From an uncultured Prochlorococcus sp. (GTDB taxonomy: Bacteria > Cyanobacteriota > Cyanobacteriia > PCC-6307 > Cyanobiaceae): a stretch of DNA of 36,042 nucleotides. Position 1 is the stretch's first letter. Each line of letters opens with the position of its first letter. The notes beneath the pieces were generated by a model. It had not been told where the DNA came from. It did not search any database and worked only from the letters and a program-made list of their open reading frames with translations. Shown here piece after piece: positions 80 through 16,880 of the stretch. The position numbers were made by a program, and so were the translations under genes. The stretch is taken from contig NZ_CACMSM010000015.1 in NCBI RefSeq assembly GCF_902616385.1, positions 1 through 36,042 on the forward strand. Direction: 5' to 3'.

Positions 80-862
80 ATGGTACTAAGGAAAAAAAAT
101 AAATCTATTAATTTTCAAGGGAAAATAAAACTAATTATTAAGACTAAGTTTGAGTATTTCATAAATAAAGTGACAGATTCCATAGCTAAGTTATCCTCCG
201 AAAAAACTGGGATCTATCAAAATGTGATATGCAAAAGAGACCTTGATGCGCTAAATTCCTCAAATTTCCAAGAACAATACAATTCCATAGCATCTCAAGA
301 TCCATACCTTCGAAATATTAACAACATTAAACTAAGAACTCATTTCATTTTGCATTATTTTGATATTTCATATGCCTTATTAAAAAACTTAAATGAATCT
401 CAAAAAGTCAAATGTTGTTTCATGGGTGTTCGTCATGGCACAGTAGCCTCAGTTATTAGTAACTTAAGGAAAGAAAATGTTGAAAGTTTCTTCTTAATTG
501 ATAACTTTAAGGATATAAATGGCTTTGATATTATTCAAAATACAAAAAATAATTTAAATTCAAATACTAATGGAAAATTTAAATTATATTTTATTAAAGG
601 ATTTCTACCTGAAGCAATAAATGATTTATCTGAGGATAAATTTAATTTTCTTCACATAAATCTTGGAGATCCTACATGGGAAATTGAGAGCTTCAAAAAA
701 TTTATTCCTAAACTAAGTAGTTACTCTGTCTGCATAATAGATAATTATGGATTTTATCCAAAAGAAAAAAGGAAAGAACTAAGAAATTTATTAGAAGAAA
801 AAAAAATATACTACACTGAACTACCAACGCTTCAGATTTGTATCATGTCCGATTTAAATTAA
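80..862 (+). CDS. TylF/MycF-like methyltransferase, divergent
   Basis: A 260-residue protein with the layout of the TylF/macrocin O-methyltransferase family, which transfers a methyl group from S-adenosylmethionine (SAM) to sugars. Visible are a glycine-containing first loop (GVRHGT, residues 116-121), an acidic turn after the next strand (IDNF, 140-143), the GFLPEAI segment (174-180), FLHINLGDPTWE (190-201) where TylF proteins have FLHLDxDxYxxT, and CIIDNYGFY (218-226) matching the family's IIDDYG. Key acidic positions are changed (HINLGD for HLDxDxY, DNYG for DDYG), so substrate and activity are uncertain. The start is the ATG at 80. The gene runs convergent to the next methyltransferase with a hairpin between them. 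Its company suggests decoration of surface polysaccharide, which is inference. The family call is fairly good, the function weak. Confidence 0.6.
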   Translation: MVLRKKNKSINFQGKIKLIIKTKFEYFINKVTDSIAKLSSEKTGIYQNVICKRDLDALNSSNFQEQYNSIASQDPYLRNINNIKLRTHFILHYFDISYALLKNLNESQKVKCCFMGVRHGTVASVISNLRKENVESFFLIDNFKDINGFDIIQNTKNNLNSNTNGKFKLYFIKGFLPEAINDLSEDKFNFLHINLGDPTWEIESFKKFIPKLSSYSVCIIDNYGFYPKEKRKELRNLLEEKKIYYTELPTLQICIMSDLN

Positions 863-880
863 TAATTAAAATATTTTTAT

Positions 881-910
881 TATTTAAGTGGCGCTAAGCG
901 GACTTAAATA
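881..910. terminator. Hairpin between convergent methyltransferase genes
   Basis: A 9-bp perfect arm (881-889 with 902-910) encloses a second 3-bp GC stem (CGC/GCG, 892-894 with 898-900). It sits in the 81-bp gap between two convergent genes. T-rich sequence lies on both sides but there is no long clean T tract, so it is a plausible bidirectional terminator rather than a certain one. Confidence 0.5.
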
Positions 911-943
911 TCTATTAATTTCAGTTAATTCCTAAATGCCTAA

Positions 944-1870
944 TCAAAACTTAGCAATTGCTACTAGTAATCCTCCTGAATTAGTTATTTTTGAAAGCCC
1001 GTAATAAGCATTGAGAACTATAGACGTTTTTAGTTTTGATGGGGATGGGAACGATTGTCCAAATGATTTGTGATTATTTGTACAACTAAAAATTTTTAGT
1101 ATTTCAGGTTTTTCTTCTAGTTTATTGAATAGTATTTCTAAGGATTTTCTTTTATATCCTATTTGATGAAAAGGTAAAATAATTCCTCCAAACCTTTTAG
1201 AAGTTGGTCTCAGCTTATAATAAAAAGATGAGAGACTATCATGATTTGGTATATCAATATGAATTAATGAATTAGATTCCTTCAGTAATGATCTTAATTT
1301 AACTAGTAACTCTAAGGGGGTAAAAAAGTGTTCTAAAACTTGTGAAGCAAAAATGACATCAAAAGGGCCAATATCTTTTTGTTTGATAATATCTCCAAAA
1401 TAAATGTTTAAATTAGGATTTCTTCTTTTACCAATTGAGATTGCATCTTTATCAATATCTATTCCCATAACATTTTGACCTAACTTAGATAAACTTTCTA
1501 TAGCAAGGCCTGTACTACATCCAACTTCTAGTATCTTTAATTTGTCTGAAGGTTTTTTGCCTAAGATTTTTTTCCAATAGTTTAACCTTTTTGTAAATGT
1601 AGATAAATATATTGCTGACGTATTAATACCCTTTTCATAATTAGTAGATTTAAGATCATCTATAAAATCTTTAGCTGATCCTGTCGAATTAACTGATCCA
1701 GTAGAAGCATATGTTTCATCAAATTCCTCTTTAATAAAAGGACTCGCATAAGAAGTTTTACATTGTTTGCAAGAAAATATATTAGTGGTTTTAAATTTGG
1801 TTTTAATTTTTCTTTGCGACTTAGAAAAACAAACAGGACAATTAATAATTTCCATATAATTATTTTGCAT
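944..1870 (-). CDS. Zinc-ribbon class I SAM-dependent methyltransferase
   Basis: A 308-residue protein. The N-terminus has four cysteines in two pairs (C11/C14 and C34/C37), a zinc-ribbon pattern often found ahead of methyltransferases in polysaccharide clusters. A class I methyltransferase core follows: motif I ILEVGCSTG (113-121), the acidic end of strand 2 (GIDID, 136-140), FGD (158-160) and the DVIFASQVLEH segment (171-181), as in the Methyltransf_23 group. The remaining 120 residues are probably a substrate-binding region. The start is the ATG at 1870; an in-frame ATG at codon 6 would leave the zinc ribbon intact. The likely role is methylation of a sugar or lipid in cell-surface biosynthesis, inferred from the neighbourhood. 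The acceptor cannot be told. Confidence 0.75.
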   Translation of the reverse strand: MQNNYMEIINCPVCFSKSQRKIKTKFKTTNIFSCKQCKTSYASPFIKEEFDETYASTGSVNSTGSAKDFIDDLKSTNYEKGINTSAIYLSTFTKRLNYWKKILGKKPSDKLKILEVGCSTGLAIESLSKLGQNVMGIDIDKDAISIGKRRNPNLNIYFGDIIKQKDIGPFDVIFASQVLEHFFTPLELLVKLRSLLKESNSLIHIDIPNHDSLSSFYYKLRPTSKRFGGIILPFHQIGYKRKSLEILFNKLEEKPEILKIFSCTNNHKSFGQSFPSPSKLKTSIVLNAYYGLSKITNSGGLLVAIAKF

Positions 1871-2311
1871 TAAACAAAAACTTTAGATTATTTTTTCTAT
1901 ACAAAACTTCTACAGCTTCTTTTAAAATACACACAAAATTTTGCATTACTTCATTAATTATCTGGATGGCATTTAACATGTTCAATTTTGATTTGGCTCC
2001 CACATTATTGTAAGTGTTGCATTTATTTTTTTTATATTTGGGTAATATCTCTGCACAAAAACTTACACGCGGATTTCACGTAAAGACCAATTCAAGCTTT
2101 GTTGAAGCTTCACAGCTTCTTGTAGTTTCTTTTAAAAGATTAACTTTGGCTAACCTATAAAAACTAAAATTACTATATACACCTTATACATATTTGCAAG
2201 GGTTAATGCTCGCAGAGAGTGCATATAAAAACATATTTAGACAATAAAATGCATGATGTATTCTTATGTATTATCGTTCAAACAAATTGGTATAATTAGC
2301 GAATTTACTGA
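1871..2311. other. Non-coding stretch between methyltransferase and tRNA-Ala
   Basis: About 440 bases without a convincing gene. On the minus strand a frame is open from about 2070 down to a stop at 1860 and contains an ATG at 1979 that would give 39 residues (beginning MLNAIQIINEV) and overlap the methyltransferase start; it may be the tail of a lost gene. On the plus strand there is a 6-bp hairpin followed by T-rich sequence at 2104-2133, listed separately. Two copies of the palindrome AAGCTT lie at 2094-2099 and 2105-2110. No transposase, further tRNA or known riboswitch is visible. Confidence 0.4.
2104..2133 (+). terminator. Candidate intrinsic terminator in non-coding DNA
   Basis: GAAGCT (2104-2109) pairs with AGCTTC (2114-2119) across a TCAC loop and is followed by a T-rich run (2120-2133). 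No plus-strand gene lies just upstream, so if real it would end a short non-coding transcript. The stem is short and the T run is interrupted, so confidence is low. Confidence 0.25.
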
Positions 2312-2384
2312 TGGAGCCAAGCGGATTCGAACCGCTGACCCCCTGCATGCCATGCAGGTGCTCTACCAACTGAGCTATGGCCCC
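2312..2384 (-). tRNA. tRNA-Ala (anticodon GGC)
   Basis: Read on the minus strand, 73 bases fold as a complete cloverleaf. The acceptor stem GGGGCCA pairs with TGGCTCC (one G-U pair). The D arm is GCTC/GAGC. The anticodon stem CCTGC/GCAGG holds the loop ATGGCAT, giving anticodon GGC, which reads GCC and GCU alanine codons. The variable loop is GGGTC and the T arm is AGCGG/CCGCT with loop TTCGAAT. The discriminator base is A. The 3' CCA is not encoded (TCA follows), so it must be added after transcription. The tRNA lies among surface-polysaccharide genes and may mark an island boundary. Confidence 0.97.
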
Positions 2385-2804
2385 AAAGCTACAAACGTCG
2401 CTTATCATTCAATTGAAGATTTCTTTTATAACGTTCTTAATTCTCATAGTACTTTAATGTAAATTATTTATCAATCTCATAAAAAATACTAGAAAGTATG
2501 AGTTAAAGATACCGCGAAGCTAATAAAAATAAAGTTATTTATAAAAAAATTTTGTTATGTATTTTTCTCACCATATGAATAATTTGTAAATATGAAAGAT
2601 AATTAATTTTTGATTTTTGATATCCTAAATTTAAGACTATTTTTTTTGTAGTAAATAATAAATTTTGGAAAAAATAAAGATGCAATAGCCAGTAATACAT
2701 TTTGGAGGTTCAGGGACTAGATTATGGCCATTATCAAGAGAAAATTTTCCTAAACGATATTTAATCAAATTCCCGAAATTTATCTTAATTCTTAACTTTA
2801 GAAA
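2385..2804. other. Non-coding stretch upstream of tRNA-Ala, with gene remnant
   Basis: About 420 very AT-rich bases. The end next to the tRNA (2385-2440) must hold the tRNA promoter, but no box stands out. A weak inverted repeat (CTCATA/TATGAG) is centred near 2490. The far end carries a decayed piece of a ManC-type gene, listed separately. Nothing else can be supported here. Confidence 0.5.
2680..2781 (+). pseudogene. Remnant of a ManC-type mannose-1-phosphate guanylyltransferase
   Basis: Positions 2704-2754 translate on the plus strand as GGSGTRLWPLSRENFPK, the N-terminal nucleotide-binding signature (GGxGxRLxPLxxxxxPK) of sugar-nucleotide transferases. The LWPLSRE form is typical of ManC/CpsB enzymes, which make GDP-mannose. 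The frame continues to about 2781 (RYLIKFPKF) and stops at 2806. Just upstream, PVIHF corresponds to the PVIL strand that precedes the signature, but an in-frame TAG at 2686-2688 and an apparent 2-base loss separate it from an ATG at 2680. Intact enzymes are about 350-480 residues, so only the first 35 codons or so survive. This is a dead fragment, consistent with loss of a polysaccharide gene here. Confidence 0.75.
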
Positions 2805-3539
2805 TTAAAAAAATCTTTTTAAATCATTTTTTTTTAAATATATTTTATTAGCTAAATAATATAACCAAATACAAGCAATTGCTATTGAGGTTAATTCTCC
2901 AACTTCTTCAACAAAATAAAAAAGTTTGGCGAAAAAATCTTTCAAAATTAGTTCAGAATTAATTACTAAAAATGATCTAAAAAAATCTACAAATATCCCA
3001 AAAAATGACATTAAGAGAAAAAATTTACAATTATCAAAAATAAATTTTTTATTTTTTGATGAATTAATTAAAAAAGGAGGTATTGAAAAGAGTAAAAATA
3101 CTACACCAACAATAAGCCAATATGTAATTTCTGATATTTGTTCATAAGAGCCAAAATTAAAAGGTTTTAGTTGTTCAAATATTTTCAGAATATAATTACT
3201 TAAAACCCCATCATGAAGATAATAAAAGTCATCAAAAAATAAAAATAAATACGTCAAAGGGACAGATATTGACAAATATAATTTATTTTGAAAAATAATA
3301 TATGCTGATAAAAATGAGGACCAAATTAAAAAAATATACTGTAGATGTTCGAAATATCCTCTTTCTTGTCCAGGCTTGAAAAGGTCAGACATAAGTAAAT
3401 CACTATTATTAGTATTTATTAAATTGTCATTAAAATAATTAATTAAAGATCCAAATATATGAAGAATAACTATCAAAAAAATCATATATGAAAAAAGATT
3501 TAAATAATTTTTACTGAAATTTATTCTTTGCCTTTTCAT
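2805..3539 (-). CDS. Polytopic membrane protein of unknown function
   Basis: A 244-residue, strongly hydrophobic protein with about six predicted membrane segments (near residues 14-35, 66-85, 87-103, 138-158, 170-190 and 214-230, by eye). Between them lie conserved-looking polar motifs: EHLQY (64-68), DDFYYLHD (103-110) and EEVGEL (210-215). Clustered acidic and histidine residues at membrane borders suggest a metal-dependent membrane enzyme, but I do not recognise the family. The last residues are basic. It lies 148 bases downstream of the wzz-like gene on the same strand and may belong with the export genes. The start is the ATG at 3539. Base composition is as AT-rich as the rest of the island. 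Confidence 0.6.
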   Translation of the reverse strand: MKRQRINFSKNYLNLFSYMIFLIVILHIFGSLINYFNDNLINTNNSDLLMSDLFKPGQERGYFEHLQYIFLIWSSFLSAYIIFQNKLYLSISVPLTYLFLFFDDFYYLHDGVLSNYILKIFEQLKPFNFGSYEQISEITYWLIVGVVFLLFSIPPFLINSSKNKKFIFDNCKFFLLMSFFGIFVDFFRSFLVINSELILKDFFAKLFYFVEEVGELTSIAIACIWLYYLANKIYLKKNDLKRFF

Positions 3540-3687
3540 AAAAAAAATTGATAGAATTTTATAATAATATTTTATTTGCTTTGCCTAATAAGGTAAACTT
3601 GAAATTAATAATTTTCTAGTTAAAAACTAATTTCTCAATTAAAAACTTTTAAAGTTAAGATTTTCAAAAAATTGAATATAAATCAAG

Positions 3688-5373
3688 TTAAGTATCTTCA
3701 ATCATAATTATTCCATTTAATTCAAAATTTAAAAACTTTAAATGCTTTGTTAATTTATATATTTGCTTTTTATCTAACAGTTTCATATCTACTATCAGAT
3801 AAAAAGTTTGATTTTTATTAATTTTCTTTAAATTTTTTAAATTAGTCTGAAAAAACTTAATAGTTTTTTCTTCTTCATTATTAATTAAAGAACTAAAAGT
3901 GTTTACTCTACTTTCTAGTTCATCAGTTAAATAAATAAATACAATACTATTTTTAGAATTAAGACTAAAAAATGTTTCCAAGAATTTTATTTTATCTGAG
4001 GATGATATCAAATCATTTACATTCAAGTTCTCGATCAAGGGGATATTTAAAAGTTTTATTATTTCTTCAGTATCAAAAACTTTTCCTGATTTTTTTTCTC
4101 TATAAAAAGAAAATATTGAACTGATAAAGAAAGCAGTTAATAAACCTAAAAATGGAAATTTTATCCTAGATGGGCCTACGGGAAAAGTTTTTAAAGTTGG
4201 TTCTGTTATTAATTCCCAAGGGTCTTCTGCTCTCGCTTCCTCTAATTCAACTATTCTTAATTTATCTTCCAAATCGACTAATGTAGATTCATCTCTAGCT
4301 GCTTCTCTAATTAGTTCTTTATAATTGAGTATTACTCCTTTAGGCCTAATAGTTGATTCCAATAAGGTTTCAGCTTCTAATTTTTCTGATAATAGAAATT
4401 TAGTTACTCTATCTTTTAGATAATCAAGTGTAAGCTTTCTTTGCTCTAATAAATTGATTATGTTTATATCATCCTCAGTATATTTGGATCGTTCAGTAAT
4501 AAGTTCTCGTTCAATATTTTTCAGTATTGCATAATCTTCTTTTAAGAGTGATCCATCAACACCGCCAATAAATTGGAGAGTCGAAGAATCTTCCGTTTTA
4601 CTTATGTTTTTCAACCTTATATCAATCTCTTTTATCTTTTTTGCACTTTGAATTCTTATCTTTTCAATATCAATATTTCTATTTACAAAAATATCTTGCT
4701 TTCCTTCATTTTCAGCAGAATTTATTTGTGGATAATCAAGAACATTCTCAATTGCGTAATCCTGCATTTTCTTCAATGAAGAAGTACTTTTATCTTTAAA
4801 AAAAACAATTTGATCTTGCAAATAATTTTTGGTTAATTTTTGCAGTCTACGCTTTTTTTTACCAGAATAATCTTGATAAGCAAAGCTGATTTTTTTTAAT
4901 GCTGGAAGAATTAATTCTTTATCAGTATCTCTATAAGAAATATTTAAGACTGAAGTACCTTTTTTGAGAGTAATATCTAAATTACTTTTCCATGCGGAAT
5001 ATTTTCCTATATATTCTTTATCTTTTTTTATTTTTCTAGCAACAACAAAATCGAAAATTGGGATCAATACAGAGGGACTTTCTAAAATAGCGACCTCAGT
5101 CTTCAAATCATTATCTGGTTTAAGATCTAAAATTTTTTCCACTTTAGGATCTAAGCCTGAAAAAAATTCATTATTATTTAATACGATTTGAAATTGCCCT
5201 TCCCAAATCCGCTTGAGTGTTAATGAATAAAAAGAACATAATAAGAAAAAAATAATCGAACTAGTACTAATAAATAATTTATTTCTTCCCAAAAATTTAA
5301 AAAAAATTCTTAGATCAAATTCTTCATTTGAATTAAGAGGGTTTTGAGATTCACTTTTAAGATTGTTGTTCAT
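3688..5373 (-). CDS. Wzz-type polysaccharide co-polymerase with degenerate kinase-like C-terminus
   Basis: An inner-membrane protein expected to control chain length or export of a surface polysaccharide together with the Wza-like protein encoded just upstream. From the ATG at 5373 it has 561 residues: a Wzz N-terminal domain with first membrane segment (about 33-53), a long helical periplasmic region, and a second membrane segment (406-424) preceded by the proline-rich PVGPSRIKFP. A 130-residue cytoplasmic tail follows. The tail has the strand order of a bacterial tyrosine kinase but no Walker A: NSIVFIYLTDELESR (474-488) stands where GEGKS is expected. An earlier GTG at 5385 would overlap the upstream gene by 8 bases; AGGTG nine bases before the ATG favours the ATG. 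Confidence 0.8.
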   Translation of the reverse strand: MNNNLKSESQNPLNSNEEFDLRIFFKFLGRNKLFISTSSIIFFLLCSFYSLTLKRIWEGQFQIVLNNNEFFSGLDPKVEKILDLKPDNDLKTEVAILESPSVLIPIFDFVVARKIKKDKEYIGKYSAWKSNLDITLKKGTSVLNISYRDTDKELILPALKKISFAYQDYSGKKKRRLQKLTKNYLQDQIVFFKDKSTSSLKKMQDYAIENVLDYPQINSAENEGKQDIFVNRNIDIEKIRIQSAKKIKEIDIRLKNISKTEDSSTLQFIGGVDGSLLKEDYAILKNIERELITERSKYTEDDINIINLLEQRKLTLDYLKDRVTKFLLSEKLEAETLLESTIRPKGVILNYKELIREAARDESTLVDLEDKLRIVELEEARAEDPWELITEPTLKTFPVGPSRIKFPFLGLLTAFFISSIFSFYREKKSGKVFDTEEIIKLLNIPLIENLNVNDLISSSDKIKFLETFFSLNSKNSIVFIYLTDELESRVNTFSSLINNEEEKTIKFFQTNLKNLKKINKNQTFYLIVDMKLLDKKQIYKLTKHLKFLNFELNGIIMIEDT

Positions 5374-5377
5374 TAGA

Positions 5378-6511
5378 TTATTCACCTAATACTTTAAATA
5401 TTGAATATGTTGAAAAGATACCCATAAAAGGGCTTGTAAATTCATTTATGATTTCTGTTGATATTGACAAAGGACTAGAACCAACAATTATTAAGTCATT
5501 TCGTTTTAAATAAGGATTTCGAGAAGATCCTCTCAAGGCTGACTTATCAAAACGAAATTTTCTTTTTTCTAGTGTACCGTTATTTTGAATCCTCAAGAAA
5601 GAAATTTTACCTTTTAATGCTTTTGCTCCTCCAGCCAAACTAATTGCATCATTTAATGCAAGCGTCTTAGAGGCTATTATTTTACCTGGATAATTAACTC
5701 GACCAGATACAAAAACTTCAACAAATTTTGGATTAAGTCTGGAAAGAATTGATTTTTGCAAAATAAAATTATTTGATTTATCTCCTTTCTTGACTTTTAT
5801 TATGTCTTCATCATAAATTCTTATATTTTGAGAAATATCACCCTTTAAAATTACTTTTTCAAAATTAAGATTTGCAGTTATTTTTCCTCCCCCTTGCGAG
5901 ATTTTATTTTTTCTAATAATTTGTACTTGAGAAAGATCTGTAAATTCAGTTATTCCTCCACTACTTCTTATAGCGTCAAATACTGTGGGATAAAAATTTT
6001 CAATTTCACTTCTATTTTGTGCAGATATATTGCTAGGAATATTTTTTTCTTTTGAATTTAAAGAATTTAGAGAAAAAGAACCTTCTAATATTTGCATACC
6101 AGGATTTTCGACTTCTCCCTCTACAAAAACCCTTATTGGACGATAACGTAAAATTTCAACTTCTAGTTCTGGGAATTTTACAAACTTTTTATAAGCCTCA
6201 TTCAAAACCTGAGTAAGTTCATTGATGGAAAGATCTCTGACAAATATTCTGTTCAACTTTGGTAGTAAAATTGTCCCTTCCCCATCAACTCTAGCTACTG
6301 TAGTAAGCTCAGGGTAAAACCTTGAAACTATGATATTTAGTTCGTCACCTGGACCAATTATGTAATCAGTTTTAGGTCTCTTCTGCAAATAATCAGGAGA
6401 TATTGGTATATTAGAAGACTCCCTTTCATTATCTATTGAAGCTGAATTAACAGGAACAATACCTGAAAAAATCAAAAAAATTGACAAAATTGTATGGACT
6501 CTATTTTTCAA
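5378..6511 (-). CDS. Wza-like polysaccharide export protein (OPX family)
   Basis: A 377-residue secreted protein of the outer-membrane polysaccharide export family. Residues 1-24 form a signal peptide ending in a VNSA type I cleavage site. The Poly_export domain begins at DYIIGPGDELNI (49-60) and runs to about residue 123. A first SLBB domain starts at IRVFVEGEVENPG (126-138) and a second at FVEVFVSGRVNYPG (263-276). The C-terminal 25 residues could form the amphipathic helix that spans the outer membrane in Wza. No cysteine is present in the signal region, so it is not an evident lipoprotein, unlike E. coli Wza. It lies directly upstream of the wzz-like gene and is probably co-transcribed with it. 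Confidence 0.88.
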   Translation of the reverse strand: MKNRVHTILSIFLIFSGIVPVNSASIDNERESSNIPISPDYLQKRPKTDYIIGPGDELNIIVSRFYPELTTVARVDGEGTILLPKLNRIFVRDLSINELTQVLNEAYKKFVKFPELEVEILRYRPIRVFVEGEVENPGMQILEGSFSLNSLNSKEKNIPSNISAQNRSEIENFYPTVFDAIRSSGGITEFTDLSQVQIIRKNKISQGGGKITANLNFEKVILKGDISQNIRIYDEDIIKVKKGDKSNNFILQKSILSRLNPKFVEVFVSGRVNYPGKIIASKTLALNDAISLAGGAKALKGKISFLRIQNNGTLEKRKFRFDKSALRGSSRNPYLKRNDLIIVGSSPLSISTEIINEFTSPFMGIFSTYSIFKVLGE

Positions 6512-6619
6512 ATTTTTTTGATATATATGTTTATTCTAACTTACCAAGCAGGATTAACTTAATATTAATTTATCATTTTAGATCTCTAAACTCTTAAGTT
6601 GTGAAATTAAAAATGTTAC

Positions 6620-7237
6620 CTAGATACGCCTCCAAACAGCTAATAATTTTCCTTGAAAAACGACTTCATCTAGATTCAACTCAATTGGTTCATAAGCTGG
6701 ATTTGCTGCTTCAAGAAATATTTTTCCTCCTCTTTTAACAAAATACTTTAGAGTTGTCCCTAATCCTGGAACCAATGCACTAACAATAGTTCCGTTTCTA
6801 AGAGAGTATGAATCTGTAATTGGCTCCATCAAAACCATATCTCCATCTGCAATACATGCTTCTATCATAGAATCTCCATTAACTGTCAGAGCAAAAACAT
6901 TTTTCTTTTTTAAAACATCAGAGATATCTAAATTCTCTTGAACATCAGAATAAGTTTCAATTAAACCTCCAGCTGCGACTGAACCCATAATTGGTACACC
7001 TTCTATGATTTCATCAACTATTTGCATTGTTCTTGCTTTACCTTCTTGCCAAGAGATGTAGCCCTTTTCTTGCAAATGTTTTAAGCGACTTTGAATTGGA
7101 GCAGGAGATTTTAATCCCATAGCTTGCATCATTTGTCTAATGGATGGGCTATGTTGAAAGTTTTTCATATAATCTTTTATCCATGCATAGAGCTCATTTT
7201 GAGCTTGGGTAAGATCGCCTCCTGAAGAAGTTTCCAT
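6620..7237 (-). CDS. lexA: LexA repressor
   Basis: A 205-residue LexA. An N-terminal winged helix-turn-helix DNA-binding domain (about 8-72, with PSIRQMMQAMGLKS) precedes a self-cleaving S24 peptidase domain. The cleavage bond is Ala89-Gly90 (SVAAGG), the nucleophile is Ser123 (GDSM) and the general base is Lys164 (TTLKYF), so all residues for RecA-stimulated self-cleavage are present. The start is the ATG at 7237. Two near-consensus cyanobacterial LexA boxes lie immediately upstream, so it probably represses itself. It follows argF on the same strand by 57 bases. In some cyanobacteria LexA controls non-SOS genes; here the intact catalytic residues favour a classical DNA-damage role. Confidence 0.96.
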   Translation of the reverse strand: METSSGGDLTQAQNELYAWIKDYMKNFQHSPSIRQMMQAMGLKSPAPIQSRLKHLQEKGYISWQEGKARTMQIVDEIIEGVPIMGSVAAGGLIETYSDVQENLDISDVLKKKNVFALTVNGDSMIEACIADGDMVLMEPITDSYSLRNGTIVSALVPGLGTTLKYFVKRGGKIFLEAANPAYEPIELNLDEVVFQGKLLAVWRRI

Positions 7238-7267
7238 AAAACATATGTACTCTAATACATTTGTACC
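7238..7267 (-). promoter_or_regulatory. Two tandem LexA boxes upstream of lexA
   Basis: On the minus strand AGTACATATGTTTT (7251 to 7238) and GGTACAAATGTATT (7267 to 7254) each match the cyanobacterial LexA box RGTACNNNDGTWCB at all but one specified position; in both the C of GTWC is a T. Their starts are 16 bases apart, and the nearer box abuts the lexA start codon. The position fits autoregulation and implies a very short leader or a promoter inside the boxes. Confidence 0.7.
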
Positions 7268-7294
7268 CTTTTATTAATTAGTTCGCAAGTATTC

Positions 7295-8221
7295 CTATTG
7301 AAGGAGGCATGATAAAAGAGCTTGTTGAGCATGCAATCTATTTTCCGCTTGATCAAAAATTCTACTTTTGTGACTTTCAAATATTTCATCAGTTATCTCT
7401 TTTGATCTATACGCAGGAAGGCAATGAAGAATAATTGAATCTTTATCAGCCTTACTAACTAAATCATTGTCAATAGTAAACCCATTAAAAACTTTTTCTT
7501 TCTCATCTTTTTGATTTTCTTCACCCATAGATGACCAAACATCTGTATAAAGAACATTTGCTCCTAAAACAGCAGTATTAGGATCATTAGTGATTTTTAA
7601 CAAATTCTTATTTTCATATATTTCATATGCTTTATTGATCAACAATGAGTTAGGTTCATAACCTTTAGGACATGCAATCCTAACTTCTACTCCTAATAAA
7701 GCGCCACATAAAATAAGAGAATTTGCGACATTATTACCGTCTCCAATAAATGTCAAAACTAAATCTTTAAAATCAAGAAATTCCTCTTTGATTGTCATAA
7801 AGTCAGCCAAAGCCTGGCATGGATGTTCTAAATCAGTAAGAGCGTTAATAACTGGCTTAGAGGACCATTTTGCATACTCTTCCAAATCACTTTGTTTAAA
7901 TGTTCTTATAGCAAGAACATCGCAGTATCTACTTAGCACTCTTGCTGTATCTCTAATTGGCTCTCCCCTCCCGATTTGTGAAGTAGTAGGATTTAGATCA
8001 ACTGTGGTCCCGCCAAGTCTTGACATTGCCACCTGAAAACTAACTCTGGTACGAGTAGATGACTTATCAAAAATTAACCCTAAAACTTTTTCTTTGAGTT
8101 TTATATTTAGATCTTTATTTTTAAAATTTTTTGCTACCTCTAAAATATGAAGAAATTCTTCACATGAGGTATCCAAGCTTGTTAAAAAATCTTTACTTGC
8201 AAGCTTAGTCGGTTTTAACAT
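7295..8221 (-). CDS. argF: Ornithine carbamoyltransferase
   Basis: A 308-residue enzyme that joins carbamoyl phosphate to ornithine to make citrulline in arginine synthesis, cytoplasmic. The carbamoyl phosphate loop SSTRTR is at 54-59, HPCQ at 133-136, the ornithine-side DVWSSMG loop at 227-233 and HCLPA at 266-270, all intact. Length is normal for the family. The SMG loop separates it from aspartate carbamoyltransferase. The start is the ATG at 8221, 28 bases after the ftsH stop, so it may be transcribed with ftsH. lexA follows downstream. Confidence 0.97.
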   Translation of the reverse strand: MLKPTKLASKDFLTSLDTSCEEFLHILEVAKNFKNKDLNIKLKEKVLGLIFDKSSTRTRVSFQVAMSRLGGTTVDLNPTTSQIGRGEPIRDTARVLSRYCDVLAIRTFKQSDLEEYAKWSSKPVINALTDLEHPCQALADFMTIKEEFLDFKDLVLTFIGDGNNVANSLILCGALLGVEVRIACPKGYEPNSLLINKAYEIYENKNLLKITNDPNTAVLGANVLYTDVWSSMGEENQKDEKEKVFNGFTIDNDLVSKADKDSIILHCLPAYRSKEITDEIFESHKSRIFDQAENRLHAQQALLSCLLQ

Positions 8222-8249
8222 CTAACTTTATATAAAAACCTAAATTCTA

Positions 8250-10112
8250 CTATGCAGGCATTTTACTCTCTGCTAAGAGAGTTTTAAGATCCTCACCCTC
8301 TATAACTTCTTCTTGAAGTATTTTTTGAGAAATCGATTCAAGAAGGGGTAAATTATTTCTCAAAATATTAAGTGCTGTTTCGTGTGCATCATCAACTAAA
8401 TCTCTAACCTCTTTATCTATTGCTTGAGCGGTAGCATCACTAACAGATCTTCTTGGATTGTTTCCATTGCCTAAAAACTGACCACCACCTTGTTTGTCAT
8501 AAGCGAGGGGACCAAGAATATCACTCATCCCGAATGTACCTACCATTTGTTCTGCTATATCAGTTGCCCTTTGTAAATCATTTGAGGCTCCGGTAGTAAT
8601 CTTTCCAAAAACGACCTCTTCTGCTGATCTTCCTCCAAGAAGTGTAGCTATTTGTCCTTTTAATTCCTCTTTTGAATTCAAAAATCTTTCTTCTGTTGGC
8701 AATTGAAGAGTATAACCAAGTGCGCTCATACCTCTGGGTACTATAGAAATCTTGGCGACTTTAGAACCTCCTGGCATAAGATGACCAACAATTGCATGAC
8801 CGACTTCGTGATAAGCAACAACTTTCTTTTCATCATCTTGCAAAACACGGCTCTTCTTTTCCAAACCTGCAACAACTCTCTCAATTGCCTCGCTTAAATC
8901 TTGTTGTTCTACACTTTTTCTTTTAGCTCTTGCTGCTAATAGAGCCGCTTCGTTTACCATATTTGCTAAGTCAGCTCCTGCAAATCCACTAGTAGCTTGA
9001 GCAATAGAATCTAAGTCAATAGAGTCTGCAAGTTTAATTTTTTTTGTATAAATCTCTAATATAGTCTTTCTTCCAGACAAATCTGGTCTGTCTACTAAAA
9101 CCTGCCTATCAAATCTTCCTGGCCTTAGAAGTGCCGCATCGAGAACTTCGGGCTGGTTCGTAGCAGCAAGCACTATAACTGGCTTATCAGTTGAAGCAAA
9201 TCCATCCATTTCGGTAAGAAGTTGATTTAAAGTTTGTTCTCTCTCATCATTGCCTCCAACAACTCCCATTGAGCCTGAGCGACTTTTGCCAATAGCGTCT
9301 AATTCATCAATAAAAATAATGCAAGGGGCTTTTTTCTTAGCTTGTTCAAATAAATCCCTAACTCTGGCTGCACCTGCACCTACAAAAAGTTCAACAAATT
9401 CAGAACCTGAAATAATGAAGAAAGGAACTTCTGCTTCACCAGCAACAGCTTTTGATAGAAGAGTTTTCCCTGTTCCTGGAGGTCCTACAAGAAGTACACC
9501 TTTAGGTATTCGTGCGCCTATATCTGTATATCTTTCAGGTCTTTTTAAAAAATCAACAATTTCTGTTAATTCATCTTTAGCTTCATCAACACCTGCTACA
9601 TCAGCAAATGTTACTTTTGATTCATCATCGGGGACATAAACTTTAGCTTTACTTTTAGTAAAACTTAGAGCTCCTTGAGCTCCACCTCCTCCCATACTTC
9701 TTCTAGCAAAAAATTGTAAAACAAGAATAAAAATTAAAGGAGGAACAACCCAGCTCAAAATGGTTGAGAAGAAATTAGGCTTTTTAGGGGGAGCAGCTGC
9801 GAATTCTACCCCTTTACTCTCTAACCTTTGTGGAAGGTCCATATCGAAAATTGGGGTTGTAGCTAAAACAGACGGAGCTCCATCTTCAGCTCCGTTCAAC
9901 TCATATCTGATTTGTTCTTGAGTGATATATGCACGCTTAACTTCTCCATCATTAACCTGATCAATAAATAATGAGTAGGGAACCCTGGGGATTTGCATAT
10001 TTTGATTAGGGAAGAGGCTACTAAATAGAAGTAATGCTCCAACTCCTATCAAAATAATATTTATTATTCCAAATCTTCTATTAGGTTGATTATCGTCTTG
10101 TCTTATTGGCAT
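8250..10112 (-). CDS. ftsH: ATP-dependent zinc metalloprotease FtsH
   Basis: A membrane-anchored AAA protease. In cyanobacteria FtsH complexes act in thylakoids on photodamaged photosystem II proteins and other membrane proteins. From the ATG at 10112 it has 620 residues: two membrane segments (about 15-34 and 117-136) around a short lumenal domain, Walker A GPPGTGKT (210-217), Walker [10 protein letters not shown] (267-275), the second region of homology with RPGRFDRQ, and the zinc-binding HEVGH (435-439). An in-frame TTG at 10124 would add four residues and is less likely. Several FtsH paralogues are usual in cyanobacteria, so the exact paralogue is not assigned. Confidence 0.96.
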
Positions 10113-10226
10113 AGTTGGAATCAAATTTGAACTTATTATAAACTAAACGAACAGTTTCCGTATCTGTATTGTTTTTTTTGGGTAAGAACCGAACGGTACT
10201 TTAACCCATAGAAAATATTATGAAAA

Positions 10227-11321
10227 TCAATTTTCAAATGAACTTTTAACGCATATATCATTCCCAATCAAACTTAACTGAGAATCACTTAATTTAATAA
10301 TTTCGTGCATTTCTTTAAATTCAAAATCACCCAAAGGATTCATATTATTTTCTCCACCTAAAATTTTTGGAGCAATAAAAATAATAATTTCCTGAATACA
10401 TTTAGATCGAATAGCGGCAGTAGCCAATCCAGGGCCACATTCCCAAAGAACTTTATTACATCCTCTTTTAGCAAGTATTTTTGAAATCAACTCTGGATTA
10501 TCTGATGACACCTTTTCAACATCCACACATTTTGGAATCCTTGAGAGGTAGCTTTCATTTGCTGTAGAAGAATCATAAATAACTAAAGTTTTTGCCTCAC
10601 TACAATCCCAAAGATTAGATTTTGAAGGGAGATCTAAACTTTTTGTGAAAACAACTCGCAAAGGCTCAGGATTTTTTTTTCCTCTAGTAGTCAAAAGTGG
10701 GTTGTCTCTTCTTAATGTGTTTCCCCCAATGATTATTGCATCAAATTCTGCTCTAAAAGAATGAACCAAAGACCTTGATTCATCATTAGTAATCCATTTA
10801 CTTTTTCCATTTTTTAAAGCTATTCTTCCATCTATACTCATTGCCCATTTCAAAACACCAAATGCCTTTTTAGTAATATTCCTATGAATGAAAGCCTTAT
10901 TTAGATCTAAGGATTCTTTTTTGCATAATCCCAAATGAACTTTTATTCCAGCTTCTTTTAGAAGCTTAATACCTTTACCAGAAACTCTTTTATCAGGATC
11001 TTCAATAGATATATACACCTTTTTAATCCCAGAGGATATCACCTTATCTACGCATGGAGGTGTTTTACCTTGATGGCAACAAGGTTCAAGATTCACATAC
11101 ATTGTTCCACCGTTAGCATCCTTTTTTAAGTTATTAAAAGCCATTGCCTCTGCATGAGGCATTCCGGCCTTGAAATGAAACCCTTCTGCAATGAGGTGTC
11201 CATTTTTATCAAGTATCACTGCTCCCACCTTAGGGTTAGGACTCGTTGTATTTTTTCCTAAAGAAGCCAAAAAAATTGCTCTTTTCATCCATTGTGTATT
11301 GCTTACATTTTTTTTAGACAT
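10227..11321 (-). CDS. ribD: Bifunctional riboflavin biosynthesis deaminase/reductase RibD
   Basis: Carries out two early steps of riboflavin synthesis: deamination of the pyrimidine from GTP, then NADPH-dependent reduction of its ribose side chain. Numbered from the ATG at 11321 (364 residues), the deaminase half has HAEAMAF (56-62) and EPCCHQGKTPPC (79-90), giving zinc ligands His56, Cys81 and Cys90 and catalytic Glu58. The reductase half (about 145-360) has KWAMSIDGR and the IIGGNTLRRDNP segment. A TTG at 11327 would add two residues; GGAG touches the ATG directly, too close for a normal ribosome site. It ends the cluster with the DUF3122 and 83-residue genes. Confidence 0.95.
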   Translation of the reverse strand: MSKKNVSNTQWMKRAIFLASLGKNTTSPNPKVGAVILDKNGHLIAEGFHFKAGMPHAEAMAFNNLKKDANGGTMYVNLEPCCHQGKTPPCVDKVISSGIKKVYISIEDPDKRVSGKGIKLLKEAGIKVHLGLCKKESLDLNKAFIHRNITKKAFGVLKWAMSIDGRIALKNGKSKWITNDESRSLVHSFRAEFDAIIIGGNTLRRDNPLLTTRGKKNPEPLRVVFTKSLDLPSKSNLWDCSEAKTLVIYDSSTANESYLSRIPKCVDVEKVSSDNPELISKILAKRGCNKVLWECGPGLATAAIRSKCIQEIIIFIAPKILGGENNMNPLGDFEFKEMHEIIKLSDSQLSLIGNDICVKSSFEN

Positions 11322-11336
11322 CTCCAAAAATCAAAT

Positions 11337-11837
11337 TCAGTTTATTGATCTCCACTCTTTGACAACGAAAGGAGGCACAGGCAACTCAGAGAAAACCCCT
11401 GACAAAGATAATCTTAATGGTCTATTTTTATCTAAATTTTGTATCAATTCATCAAGATCAAATTCTGCAGCAGCTTGTCTTCCATCATTTGCTAATTCCA
11501 CATTAAGTAATGTTTTATCATCTAAAAACCACTGTTTTCTTCCTGATTCAACCCTCAAGTCAGTGGGATGATCAATTCTAAGATTTCCTGGATATCCTAT
11601 TACTCTCAAGATTAATTTATCTTCAAAAAGAGGTGATTTGTAAGCTACTAATTGCCAAGTTTCAAAGTCCAAGTCCCTTAAAAACTCACTAGTAGCATTT
11701 ATTAATTCCCCATTTATTTCTGTTTCTGCAACTTCTGCGGATACTTTTAATGGGTTAAAAATAAAAGATAACAGTAAAAATAAAGGTAATATCCCTTCTA
11801 AAAAAATTTTTTTATTTGATTTTGTAATTTTCTTCAT
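11337..11837 (-). CDS. DUF3122-like secreted cyanobacterial protein
   Basis: A 166-residue protein with a basic N-terminus, a hydrophobic segment (about 13-30) and a likely signal peptidase site at VSAEV (32-36), so it should be exported to the periplasm or thylakoid lumen. The mature part is mostly beta-like and ends with PVPPFVVKEW. It resembles the cyanobacterial DUF3122 proteins, whose function is not known to me. The ATG at 11837 lies inside the end of the preceding gene (26-base overlap), and ribD follows after 15 bases, so the three genes are probably translated from one message. Confidence 0.7.
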   Translation of the reverse strand: MKKITKSNKKIFLEGILPLFLLLSFIFNPLKVSAEVAETEINGELINATSEFLRDLDFETWQLVAYKSPLFEDKLILRVIGYPGNLRIDHPTDLRVESGRKQWFLDDKTLLNVELANDGRQAAAEFDLDELIQNLDKNRPLRLSLSGVFSELPVPPFVVKEWRSIN

Positions 11838-12063
11838 TTTCAGAATCCATCAGAGCATCTAGAGTTACAGCTGTTCTTACAATAGCTTGATATCTTTTGA
11901 TTATTTTACGATTTTTTTCTATAACTCGAGATAAATTCAAAGTGTCTTTTTCAGAATAGCTAGATGTTAAATCGCTAGAATCTTCCTCAATAAACTCAAA
12001 TTCACTATCTTTATTAATTAGAGTTAACAATAAATCATGTAATCTCTTTCTCCTTTCAGACAA
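11812..12063 (-). CDS. Small conserved-looking protein of unknown function
   Basis: An 83-residue, highly charged, probably helical and cytoplasmic protein: basic start (SERRKRLHD), acidic middle, then a KNRKIIKRYQAIVRTAVTLD helix. I do not recognise a family. The start is TTG at 12063, with an in-frame TAA immediately before it and no ATG until residue 72, so TTG is forced. It overlaps the DUF3122 gene by 26 bases and leads the ribD cluster. The promoter should lie in the 83 bases shared with divergent cobL. Confidence 0.6.
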   Translation of the reverse strand: MSERRKRLHDLLLTLINKDSEFEFIEEDSSDLTSSYSEKDTLNLSRVIEKNRKIIKRYQAIVRTAVTLDALMDSENEENYKIK

Positions 12064-12146
12064 TTAATTCACTATGGTAACTCGAGTAATAATAAGATAA
12101 TTTAATAAAACATTCAAACAATTTAGTTCTATTTCATTAAATATTG

Positions 12147-13421
12147 ATGACTGAAGTTAATAGAAAAATTCATGTAATTGGGATTAATTCTTTTAAATTT
12201 GAGGATCTATCTTTCAATTCACAAAATCTATTTTTAGAAACAGCAAATATTGCAGTTCCAAATTCATATTTTGAAGAAATTAAATCATGGAGCAAAAATA
12301 GTTTATTAAAAAAGAAATTATTTTTTTCGAGCAACAGTAATCAAGAACTTGTTAAATGGCTTAGATCTCAAAAAACTGATGTTATTTTAATTTCTAGAGG
12401 AGATCCACTTTGGTTTGGAATTGGGAGAATATTACTAGAAAATTTTTCAAAAGATGAATTAAATTTCTATCCTTCAAATACTTGCATTCAATTAGCATTT
12501 AGTAAGTTAAAGATTCCGTGGCAAGATACTGTTAATGTAAGTATTCACGGCAGAGATCCTACCAAGTTAGTTGAGGCTCTTAAAGCAAGGCCTTCAAGTT
12601 TGGCTATTATTACAGATTCAAATAAATGGAGTTTAGAAATAATCAAAGAAAACTTATCAGAATTAAATCTGATTAACTTCTATGATTTTTGGCTCTGTGA
12701 AGAAATAGGCTTTGACAAAGAAAATATAAGAAAATTAAATCTTAAAGAATCATTACCCTCTGATATATCAAGTTTGAACGTTGTGGTTCTTACAAAAACA
12801 AAGAAAAATTACTCAAATGATAATCTCCCTCTTTTCGGAATCAGTGACCATATTTTTAAGACTTTTGATGATAGACCAAACTTATTAACTAAAAGGGAGG
12901 TTCGTGTTCAAATCTTAGCTGATCTAGAGCTCCCAATAAATGGCGTAATTTGGGATATAGGAGCTGGTTGTGGGTCAATTGGGTTAGAGGCATTAAAATT
13001 AAGGCCTAACTTAGATTTGTTTTGTATCGATAAAAGGTTTGGCTCAAAAGCATTAATACTAGAGAACTCAGAAAGGCTTGGCGTTAAACCAAAACTTATT
13101 TTTGAAGAAGACATAAATAATATCTTGAATACAAAAAATTTAAGTCCTTTTGAAAAACCTAATAGAGTAGTAATTGGAGGCTGTGATATAAAGACTAAAC
13201 TTCAAATTATCAATTCCATGGATCAGTGGATGAATATTGGAGATATTATAGTTATCCCAATAATTGACTTTCAAAATATTAAAGAATTGAAAGAGGAATT
13301 AGAAGATAAAAATTTCAAAACAAATTTAAATTTAATTCAGACCTACAAAAGCTTAAGTATTGCCGAAGGAATGAGATTAGAACCAAATAATCCTGTTTTT
13401 CTATTAAAAGGGAAAAAATAA
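12147..13421 (+). CDS. cobL: Precorrin-6Y C5,15-methyltransferase (decarboxylating) CobL
   Basis: A 424-residue fusion of CbiE-like and CbiT-like halves. It methylates precorrin-6Y at C5 and C15 with loss of an acetate carboxyl during cobalamin (here probably pseudocobalamin) synthesis. The CbiE half carries the tetrapyrrole-methylase loop SRGDPLWFGIG (83-93) and IITDSNKW (154-161). The CbiT half begins at LTKREVR (247-253) and has the SAM loop DIGAGCGSIG (270-279). The start chosen is the ATG at 12147; a TTG just before it is also possible. It is convergent with nadK, with only 13 bases between the stops. No other cobalamin gene is in the window. Confidence 0.92.
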   Translation: MTEVNRKIHVIGINSFKFEDLSFNSQNLFLETANIAVPNSYFEEIKSWSKNSLLKKKLFFSSNSNQELVKWLRSQKTDVILISRGDPLWFGIGRILLENFSKDELNFYPSNTCIQLAFSKLKIPWQDTVNVSIHGRDPTKLVEALKARPSSLAIITDSNKWSLEIIKENLSELNLINFYDFWLCEEIGFDKENIRKLNLKESLPSDISSLNVVVLTKTKKNYSNDNLPLFGISDHIFKTFDDRPNLLTKREVRVQILADLELPINGVIWDIGAGCGSIGLEALKLRPNLDLFCIDKRFGSKALILENSERLGVKPKLIFEEDINNILNTKNLSPFEKPNRVVIGGCDIKTKLQIINSMDQWMNIGDIIVIPIIDFQNIKELKEELEDKNFKTNLNLIQTYKSLSIAEGMRLEPNNPVFLLKGKK

Positions 13422-13434
13422 ATTCAAATAATTG

Positions 13435-14343
13435 TTATTTGTTGGGTTTAGCAACATGTGGCAACCCCCAACCTAGTTTATTTCTTAAAATTTGGAAAAA
13501 TTCATGATCTTCAAGTCGAATAAACTTTACTGAATGTTTACTTTTTCTTATTAAAACTCTATCTTCAGGCCAAACATAACAACCAGCATTACCATCAACA
13601 ACCATTACCAACCTTTCAGGAGTAGCAGGGAAAACAGTTACTGGCTCTGAATCATTAAAGACTAGTGCCCTTGAGGCCAACGAATGTGGTGCAATTGGAG
13701 TTAATTGTACTACTGGACAATCAGGTGTAATAACAGGTCCTCCAGCACTCAGAGAATAAGCAGTAGAACCAGTTGGAGTAGATAAAATTACTCCATCAGC
13801 TGAAATATCTACAGGAGCATGACGCCCTATAGAAATCTCAAAGTGACACATACTTGTTAGAGGTTCTCTATGAAGAGCCATCTCATTAAGGCAAAGAGAC
13901 TCCCATCTCCTCTGATCATTCCTCATTACGCTAATAATAAAGCAAGTTCTTTCTTCAATATCCCAATTTCCAGCAATTATTTTATCTATAGCCTCATCTA
14001 GGTTAGATAAGTAAGCTTCCGCAAGAAAACCTAAATGACCAGTATTTATTGTAAGAATTGGAATTTTAGCAGGTGCCGTTTGCCTTGCCGCAGAAAGTAC
14101 AGTTCCATCTCCTCCAAGAACAATTGCAAATTCCATTGATGAATCAAACCCCTCAGGGACACAATTCGTATATCCCAAAGGACGAACATGTTGATCAGGA
14201 TTTGCGAAACCAACCATCCCTCCAGAGCTACTAACTCTTACAACTTCAAAATTAGATTTTTCTAATTTTTTTTGAACAGAAGTTGCAGTTTGAACAGCTA
14301 GTTCCTTTCCATCATTAACGATTAGTCCTACTTTACGTACCAA
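13435..14343 (-). CDS. nadK: NAD kinase
   Basis: A 302-residue cytoplasmic enzyme phosphorylating NAD to NADP. The diacylglycerol-kinase-like fold shows GGDGT (77-81), NTGHLGFL (100-107), NEMALHR and the substrate-binding [15 protein letters not shown] segment; all are intact. The start is TTG at 14343: an in-frame TGA lies directly upstream and the first strand (VGLIVNDG, 5-12) begins at once, so no other start is possible. It follows pheS by 70 bases on the same strand. Cyanobacteria often have two NAD kinases; this is the longer form, as used for NADP supply in photosynthesis or growth, but which paralogue is not settled. Confidence 0.93.
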
Positions 14344-14413
14344 TCAAAAAATTAAAAACTAGGACTATCTTAAACTAATTTGTTGGACAAACCTAATTTA
14401 AAATTAAATACTA

Positions 14414-15421
14414 TTAGAACTGTTCTAAGAATCTAATATCATTTGTATAAAATTTTCTGATGTCATCAATCTGATGTCTCACCATACAAAATCTCTCAAC
14501 TCCTAATCCTGCTGCAAAACCAGTCCATTTCTCAGAATCTATTCCTAATTTTTCTAAGACCTTTGGATCAACCATTCCGCAACCCATTACTTCTAACCAT
14601 TTACCTTTCCACTGGACGTCTACTTCTGCTGAAGGTTCAGTAAATGGGAAATAACTAGCTCTAAATCTTACAGGAATATCTCCAAAAAAGGCCTTTAAAA
14701 ATGTAAGAACTGTTCCTCTTAAATGACTAAAATTAATATCTTGATCAATACATAAAACCTCAACCTGATTAAATACAGGGGAATGAGTAGCATCTACTGC
14801 ATCTCTCCTATATACTCTCCCGGGAGCAATAATTCTTACTGGAGGAGGATTCTTCTCTAAGTACCTTATCTGAACAGGAGAAGTATGGGTCCTTAAAAGT
14901 CGATTTTCATCTAAGTAGAAAGTATCCTGCATATCTCTTGCAGGATGATTTTTGGGTATATTGAGAGACTCAAAATTATAAAAATCAGTTTCTATTTCAG
15001 GGCCACTTTCAACTGAGTATCCTAAACCACAAAAAATATCTATTATTTCGTCTTGAGTTGAAATTAAAGGATGTTTATTCCCAGGGGGTGTTCCAATTGA
15101 AGGAATAGTTACATCAATTTTTTCTTTTTTAATCTTTTTATCTAAGGCTTCGCTGTTTAGTTTATTTTTTCTTTCAGTTATTAGTTCTTGCAAATTTATC
15201 TTTATTAAATTTGCCTTCTGGCCAATAATTGGTCTATCAGTAGCAGATAATTGACCCATTGTTTTCAAAATAATTGATAAATCACCTTTTTTCCCTAGCA
15301 AGGAAACTCTCAATTGATCCAGTTCTTCATGAGTATTAGAATTATCTATATTATTTTGTGCTGTTAGAGAAAGATTATTTAGTTTTTCCTCAATTTGACT
15401 TAATGATTCAATTTGACTCAC
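14414..15421 (-). CDS. pheS: Phenylalanyl-tRNA synthetase alpha subunit
   Basis: A 335-residue class II aminoacyl-tRNA synthetase subunit that, with PheT, charges tRNA-Phe. The N-terminal coiled coil (about 1-90) binds tRNA. The catalytic domain shows [12 protein letters not shown], motif 2 around [17 protein letters not shown], the phenylalanine pocket [12 protein letters not shown] and motif 3 [16 protein letters not shown]. All are complete, and the length fits the family. The start is GTG at 15421; the next in-frame ATG would remove most of the tRNA-binding coil. pheT is not in the window, so the subunits are encoded apart. It is divergent from surE. Confidence 0.96.
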
Positions 15422-15489
15422 TGATATAGTAAAAATAAGTATTGCTTTATCTTACTTAAATATCGTCCATAAATAAAATGTCTTGATTA

Positions 15490-16299
15490 ATGAAACCATT
15501 AAATATATTAATTAGCAATGATGATGGTGTTTTCGCAGCAGGGATAAGAGCTTTAGCAAAATCAGCCAAAAAAAGAGGGCATAAGGTAAAAGTAGTATGT
15601 CCTGACCAAGAAAGATCAGCTACTGGGCATGGTCTTACTTTACAATCCCCATTAAGAGTGGAAAAAGCTGACGAATTATTTGGAGAGGGTATTGAAGCTT
15701 GGGGATGTTCCGGAACACCTGCTGATTGTGTCAAATTAGCACTATCTGAACTCTTGGATCATAAACCTGATCTGGTACTATCCGGAATAAATCACGGACC
15801 CAATTTAGGGACAGATATTTTTTGTTCAGGTACAGTCGCTGCAGCTATGGAAGGAACTTTAGAAAATGTTCCTTCCATGGCAATAAGTGTTGCTAGTTTT
15901 AAATGGAAAAATTTTGAATTTGCAGGAGAAATTGCAATGAATATTGCCGAACAAGCAATTAACGATAGTTGGCCAGCTTCACTTTTATTAAATTTGAACA
16001 TACCCCCCTGCGAAAAAAACAAGATAAAAGAATTATCCTGGACAAGATTATCGGTAAGAAAATATAAAAATCAATTTTCCAAAAGGGAAGACCCGAGGGG
16101 TGATGATTATTATTGGTTAGCAGGTGAAGTTGTCTTAGATCTTAAATCGAAAGGTTACGGTCCTAAGAATTGGCCTAGCGATGTATCTCAAATACAAGAA
16201 AATAAAATATCTCTTACACCTGTAGAACCAGATTTATTTTGGAGAGGTAATTTAGATGACTTACCTAAAATTAATAATTCATTTGTAAATCCTTCTTAA
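15490..16299 (+). CDS. surE: 5'/3'-nucleotidase SurE
   Basis: A 269-residue metal-dependent nucleotidase that removes phosphate from nucleoside monophosphates, a stationary-phase survival protein. Metal ligands are visible as Asp11-Asp12 (ISNDDG), Ser43 (ERSATGHG) and Asn101 (SGINHGPN), in the spacing typical of the family. The start is the ATG at 15490. Its last 21 bases overlap the end of the DUF3611 gene on the other strand. It is divergent from pheS across 68 bases. Confidence 0.95.
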
Positions 16300-16812
16300 A
16301 AGCCATAAAGAAAAGCAAAGTCCAAAAAAATGAGCAGCGATAACTTGCGTGTTACTGAGAACTGATAATATTTCAAGGCCAGTAATTGGGATATCAGATG
16401 TCGCTGTTATCAATTGTCCAGTAGTTTGAGAGGATGCTTGTATAAATAAGGCTCCCATAAGAGCTTGATATCCAATTAATCCAAACAAAATTCCAAATAA
16501 ATCAACTATTAGGCCTCGTTTTATCAATTTACCGGTTTGTCCTCTTGAGGGTCTTGCGTTGCTTGCGATTGCTCTTCCAGTTCTAACTATTAACCAACCT
16601 TGCCAAAGACTAAAAAGTAGTAAAATCAGAGATATTGTTGTAAGTGATAGACCAGGCGCTAAGCCAAGCTGTCCTTCGCTGTTATTTACAACATTTGAAA
16701 AAAGCAAAACAGCTGCAACAACGACACCTAAAATAGATTGAATCCAAAAGCGTATCCATCCAATGCGCCGCATTCCAAATGAAAGGGACTGAAAATCCAT
16801 TTTGTCAGACAT
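16279..16812 (-). CDS. DUF3611-like membrane protein
   Basis: A 177-residue protein with four membrane segments (about 21-42, 55-76, 100-125 and 150-172) and a basic loop ([18 protein letters not shown], 83-100). It resembles the DUF3611 family found in cyanobacteria and plastids. The function is unknown; a thylakoid or plasma membrane location is inference. The start is the ATG at 16812, with codon 5 of the same frame (MDFQSL) as an alternative. It overlaps surE tail to tail by 21 bases and is divergent from ribF. Confidence 0.75.
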
Positions 16813-16880
16813 TCATTTGATTTAATAAACTTTAATCAATCCAAATTTGCCACTAAAATCATAAAATTGCACGTAATCTT

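Follow-up and report, generated by a model that had tools for sequence, protein, structure and literature searches.

What became of the gene whose first codons seem to lie beside tRNA-Ala in this contig, and has GDP-mannose synthesis gone with it? The window, by which we mean the whole stretch of DNA analysed (36,042 nucleotides), is an entire draft contig (C15) of Prochlorococcus genome G000, an assembly of 45 contigs, 1.50 Mb (1.498 Mb) and 96.5% completeness, and its position 1 is a contig end lying 2.3 kb past tRNA-Ala. From tRNA-Ala to ftsH the gene order is a manC stub (+) followed by genes for a 244-aa protein, Wzz, Wza, LexA, ArgF and FtsH (all -; Table 1). The original prediction saw in the segment the fossil of a ManC-type guanylyltransferase, and our analysis arrives at much the same reading: with a probability of roughly 90%, the segment is the 5' stub of manC (mannose-1-phosphate guanylyltransferase / mannose-6-phosphate isomerase), a remnant of cassette turnover.

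Table 1. Features at the tRNA-Ala end of the window (positions are those of the window)
Feature	Position	Strand	Profile match
tRNA-Ala (GGC), island edge	2310..2385	-	
Upstream region of tRNA-Ala, conserved in many relatives	2386..2475	-	
manC 5' remnant: start codon and ~26 conserved N-terminal codons	2680..2764	+	TIGR01479 positions 3-28
In-frame TAG, codon 3 of the manC remnant	2686..2688	+	
Rest of the manC-remnant frame up to its TAA (2806-2808), no convincing ManC homology; junction to the membrane-protein gene	2765..2808	+	
244-aa protein, family unknown, probably membrane-bound (judged by eye)	2805..3539	-	
Wzz-type chain length determinant	3688..5385	-	PF02706
Wza-type polysaccharide export protein	5378..6511	-	PF02563
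lexA, conserved flank of the island edge	6620..7237	-	

The stub holds the 5' end of manC only. Its conserved part is PVIHFGGSGTRLWPLSRENFPKRYL (~26 codons), and the frame at 2689-2805 translates to PVIHFGGSGTRLWPLSRENFPKRYLIKFPKFILILNFRN, within which the 17-residue signature GGSGTRLWPLSRENFPK occupies 2704-2754. Given that the piece is short, we considered whether AT-rich non-coding DNA might resemble a nucleotidyltransferase motif by chance; however, an NCBIfam profile search matched TIGR01479 (GMP_PMI) with an E-value of 1.1e-7 at positions 3-28 of 467, the correct N-terminal register, and the DNA matched at 90% over 60 bases to the manC of G281 and at 78% over 100 bases, including upstream DNA, to that of G049, leaving coincidence with next to no credibility. 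These matches bore out the predicted ManC-type remnant beside tRNA-Ala, as did a match to Pfam NTP_transferase (E-value 4.3e-5) at the very N-terminus of the profile. The hits of one DNA search showed the stub to be 74-90% identical to intact manC genes of the genus; small AT-rich matches at 2586-2632 were found in several genomes by DNA search. Across all six reading frames of the window, the pattern GG.G[TS]R[LM].P matched once, at the stub. In a search of its own genome the stub scored 27.6 bits against TIGR01479, below the curated cut-off of 372.95 for a functional ManC, and it is not full-length. The stub keeps GGxGTRLWPLSR..PK, which we take to be the nucleotide-binding signature of ManC / GMP_PMI, while the edge positions L, C/S/A and Q are broken. 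A first search of relatives with the 39-residue piece gave matches at an E-value of 1 or less in 78 of 99 genomes; apart from the window's own, every match with an E-value below 1e-3 lay in an open frame of 478-506 residues (61 genus genomes, that of the window included), making the stub a homolog of a gene that is intact in relatives.

Reading from the ATG at 2680, which is in frame with the signature, gives M Q stop P V I H F, then the signature, then R Y L. Thus, contrary to what had been supposed, there is no frameshift before the signature; codon 3 is a TAG. No in-frame ATG, GTG or TTG follows the TAG in the stub, so no ordinary start could give a peptide, and the stub has no open reading frame from a start codon. 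An intact small gene at 2689-2805 was ruled out for the same lack of a start. In several DNA matches the alignment begins at 2662-2673, extending 16-27 bases beyond the conserved CCA codon (2689) on its upstream side, which indicates that the start region of the gene itself is preserved and now contains a nonsense codon. At the other end, the early stop that was predicted after the signature is there (TAA, 2806-2808), but protein homology already stops near 2764; a gapped DNA match to G010 extends to 2803 and is weak at its end. The remnant amounts to ~28 of ~480 manC codons, and with ~78 coding bases it is too short for the parent manC to be placed. Nor was the signature perfect all round: its 17 residues are present, yet three positions at its edges deviate from 50 intact ManC proteins that we collected from the loci by a motif fixing GG.G[TS]RLWP and leaving residues 4, 5 and 23 free (which left out variants lacking this motif, e.g., that of G010). 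Residue 4 is H in the stub versus L in 50/50, residue 5 is F versus C, S or A in 50/50, and residue 23 is R versus Q in 50/50. When each intact protein was left out in turn, 40 of the 50 had no unique residue, nine had one and one had four, as against three in the stub. Judged from its letters the stub is decaying, with three conserved positions broken; since one intact protein has four unique residues, these positions are not decisive by themselves, and it is the TAG and the truncation that are. They also uphold the prediction that the segment is not an intact gene. The preservation of the signature over 25 codons might suggest a short functional element (a leader peptide, regulatory DNA or a small protein) that reuses the start of manC. 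The TAG at codon 3, the missing later start and the broken conserved residues speak against such an element, and no shared stub was seen: among the matches listed to 2689-2764 in 266 genomes, the fetched loci that could be read carry intact manC. We consider a functional element very unlikely and infer that the manC stub makes no protein and has no present function.

The relatives indicate where the gene would have stood. The window LexA is 84-97% identical to the LexA of 80 named loci (Prochlorococcus and a few Synechococcaceae), the best 80 of 217, which were taken with flanks of up to 10 kb either way and many of which are cut by contig ends. A tRNA-Ala match of at least 60 bases follows lexA in 39 of the 80 (68-69 bases in 8 of the 39), and an intact manC follows lexA in six of the 80. 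The closest layout is that of AG-355-K03 (L142, the contig of G049 C18, L064; QCDS01000018.1), which reads lexA-fcl-gmd-manC-glycosyltransferase-like ORF-tRNA-Ala(GGC), the glycosyltransferase-like ORF being named by eye; an intact counterpart of the stub thus lies at the syntenic place, oriented as the stub is, between lexA and tRNA-Ala. Intact manC also lies within 2 kb of tRNA-Ala in G037, beyond the tRNA; in G039, with the tRNA in the opposite direction; and in G010, where the fetched stretch has no lexA. These relatives match the expectation of strains that keep manC near this tRNA, and of gene turnover at the island edge. In the window a wza-wzz-membrane-protein block stands where G049 has manC-gmd-fcl, and no gmd or fcl piece was found in the window at 45% identity or more; L131 and L097 are among the loci that likewise have a wza-wzz pair between lexA and the tRNA. 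We propose that a manC facing away from the tRNA formerly lay between lexA and tRNA-Ala(GGC), probably belonging to a GDP-sugar cassette (manC-gmd-fcl) such as one relative keeps, and that exchange or deletion of surface-polysaccharide genes at the island edge removed all but its first ~28 codons, through a recombination event and an enzyme that we infer. The removal shows in what is left: only the 5' end remains, and the wza-wzz-membrane-protein block occupies the place that manC-gmd-fcl has in G049. Six nearer relatives that we fetched (G102, G043, G018, G027, G041 and G121) have lexA directly beside tRNA-Ala, as do 8 of the 80 named lexA loci, with overlap between the two sets, so the manC cassette is not necessarily ancestral and may have been a passing guest at the edge that came and went. 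One further locus (L244, from G002), fetched as another tRNA-Ala match, proved to be a TGC/Ile pair and was set aside. The 244-aa protein next to the stub had no Pfam or NCBIfam match and is rare, occurring in 8 of 265 genus genomes including its own (7 of 264 others, at 28-39% identity). One of these relatives (L243) was scanned for tRNA, manC, gmd, fcl and a glycosyltransferase-like ORF, and the seven relatives did not clarify the junction between the stub and the 244-aa gene.

A search of 139 loci and the window with the 50 ManC proteins, together with a repeat search at a looser limit of 26 genomes (chosen for weak or multiple matches, with four that had none), found five C-terminal manC stubs with stops or broken frames; because the 26 genomes were hand-picked, no stub rate can be derived from this number. 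The G178 stub lies 1.2 kb from tRNA-Ala, directly beside gmd and fcl leading to lexA, and is an independent manC decay at the same place. The stubs of G008, G115 and G147 lie 2.9, 5.2 and 13.8 kb from tRNA-Ala, respectively, and that of G043 lies ~4 kb from its own intact manC, with tRNA-Ala on another contig. A stub and an intact manC occur together in G147, G178 and G043; no intact manC was found in G008 or G115 (81% and 66% complete). All of these are decayed manC pieces like the window stub, but the others are C-terminal and that of the window is the sole N-terminal one seen. It is conceivable, though we rate it improbable, that manC stubs recur in the tRNA-Ala/lexA island because surface-sugar cassettes are exchanged by homologous recombination preferentially at manC, with its conserved signature regions, such a seam leaving N- or C-terminal scars. 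The following were left out of the stub count: seven partial ManC matches that run into a contig end (G235, G203, G257, G298, G252, G180 and G031); other nucleotidyltransferase-like frames that matched at 25-35% (G004, G160, G178, G201, G232, G302 and G057); and weak matches at 23-32%, which mainly covered the C-terminal cupin part in short frames (G225, which is L160, G201, G057, G235 and G105), which may be separate small proteins, the one in G105 having one stop. At G244:C6:8473-9895, manC is in two overlapping pieces (query 4-187 and 179-478), either a frameshifted gene or an assembly error.

Whether the loss reaches beyond this locus is a separate matter. The prediction that a GDP-mannose gene was lost held for the local manC; it is unproven for GDP-mannose synthesis genome-wide, as a distal manC may lie past the contig end. 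In the assembled own genome neither ManC nor Gmd was found over the curated cut-off. In the genus, 181 of 266 genomes match the 480-aa ManC of G049 at an E-value of 0.001 or less (a few weakly), as do 74 of the 87 that are at least 90% complete, one of these being the own genome through its stub. Where tRNA-Ala and an intact manC share a contig, they are 26-75 kb apart in 17 and <2 kb apart in 4 of 21 genomes among the matches listed, and with a contig ending 2.3 kb past the tRNA the absence of manC cannot settle whether the pathway is lost. We give an even chance to a refinement of our explanation, rather than a replacement of it, in which only a second, edge-located manC decayed and the main manC sits in unassembled island DNA, with GDP-mannose synthesis kept. 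In its favour, manC usually lies at a distance that would put it beyond such a contig end, and G000 at 1.498 Mb is smaller than the 1.6-1.8 Mb of genus genomes in four contigs or fewer (first search of relatives); G147, G178 and G043, with one stub and one intact copy each, are examples of the arrangement. Against it stands the lack of ManC and Gmd at 96.5% completeness, yet assemblies without a ManC match are not rare (13 of 86, counting the other genus genomes with a completeness of 90% or more).

The loss had also been called recent, which our estimate supports only roughly. Two of the three odd residues fall within 14 codons that are invariant in all 50 intact proteins, or 2 changes in ~31 nonsynonymous sites (0.065, with a wide 95% interval of 0.008-0.233). 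For the nearest relatives fetched, the Jukes-Cantor distance at fourfold sites of ftsH, argF and lexA is 0.37, or ~0.18 per lineage; compared with this value, the 0.065 places the loss probably after the divergence from those relatives, the width of the interval leaving room for an older loss.

Part of the literature on tycheposon-type tRNA-bound elements gives a tyrosine recombinase beside the tRNA as their criterion (PMC10872708). Pfam found no integrase or tyrosine recombinase among the nine proteins of 80-11327, and in locus L101 a clear PHROG integrase likewise went undetected by Pfam. The window was also compared with tRNA-Ala for an att scar; apart from the tRNA itself, the best candidates were a 17-base match within the tRNA and an 11-base match at 6820-6830, and both were rejected. 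A phage collection gave 297 records against 2000-3600, and the 20 matches listed cover the tRNA stretch only. In L101 (Prochlorococcus AG-355-G23), positions 10683-17273 hold what looks like a phage-satellite-like element integrated between lexA and tRNA-Ala(GGC), in the order 5'-half tRNA copy by lexA, AAA ATPase, integrase, intact tRNA-Ala and 3'-half copy. Its ATPase has weak primase/helicase-type PHROG matches, and its integrase matches PHROG 1 (E-value 5.9e-20) with no Pfam match at 0.01. This element suggests that tRNA-Ala(GGC) is an attachment site. Partial tRNA-Ala(GGC) copies, mostly of 42-53 nt, lie near lexA or the intact tRNA in nine of the 80 loci (L088, L091, L094, L101, L102, L116, L118, L124 and L134) and are possibly integration scars.

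No paper on a manC fossil at tRNA-Ala appeared among the titles and opening lines of abstracts listed from the open-access literature searched. The stub is direct sequence evidence for the removal of a GDP-sugar gene next to tRNA-Ala in Prochlorococcus, where a named relative still has the intact locus, and decayed manC copies of this kind help to show the turnover of genes that are core and yet lie in islands; an ecological effect, e.g., on phage attachment, would be hypothetical. As an ordinary trace of the rapid surface-sugar gene swapping known in Prochlorococcus, the stub can be set beside the closest known systems. With intact Prochlorococcus ManC / CpsB, GMP_PMI (TIGR01479), it shares the N-terminal nucleotidyltransferase signature and the start region. 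With the intact manC of AG-355-K03 it shares orientation and a place between lexA and tRNA-Ala, but it is cut to ~28 of ~480 codons and has a stop at codon 3. Part of Delmont and Eren (2018; PMC5804319) places mannose-1-phosphate guanylyltransferase and GDP-mannose 4,6-dehydratase in hypervariable Prochlorococcus islands and the former, as a high-light and low-light core gene cluster of the isolates, in islands rich in sugar genes; there, the islands are described from present genes and read recruitment, whereas the case in the window is a gene fossil.
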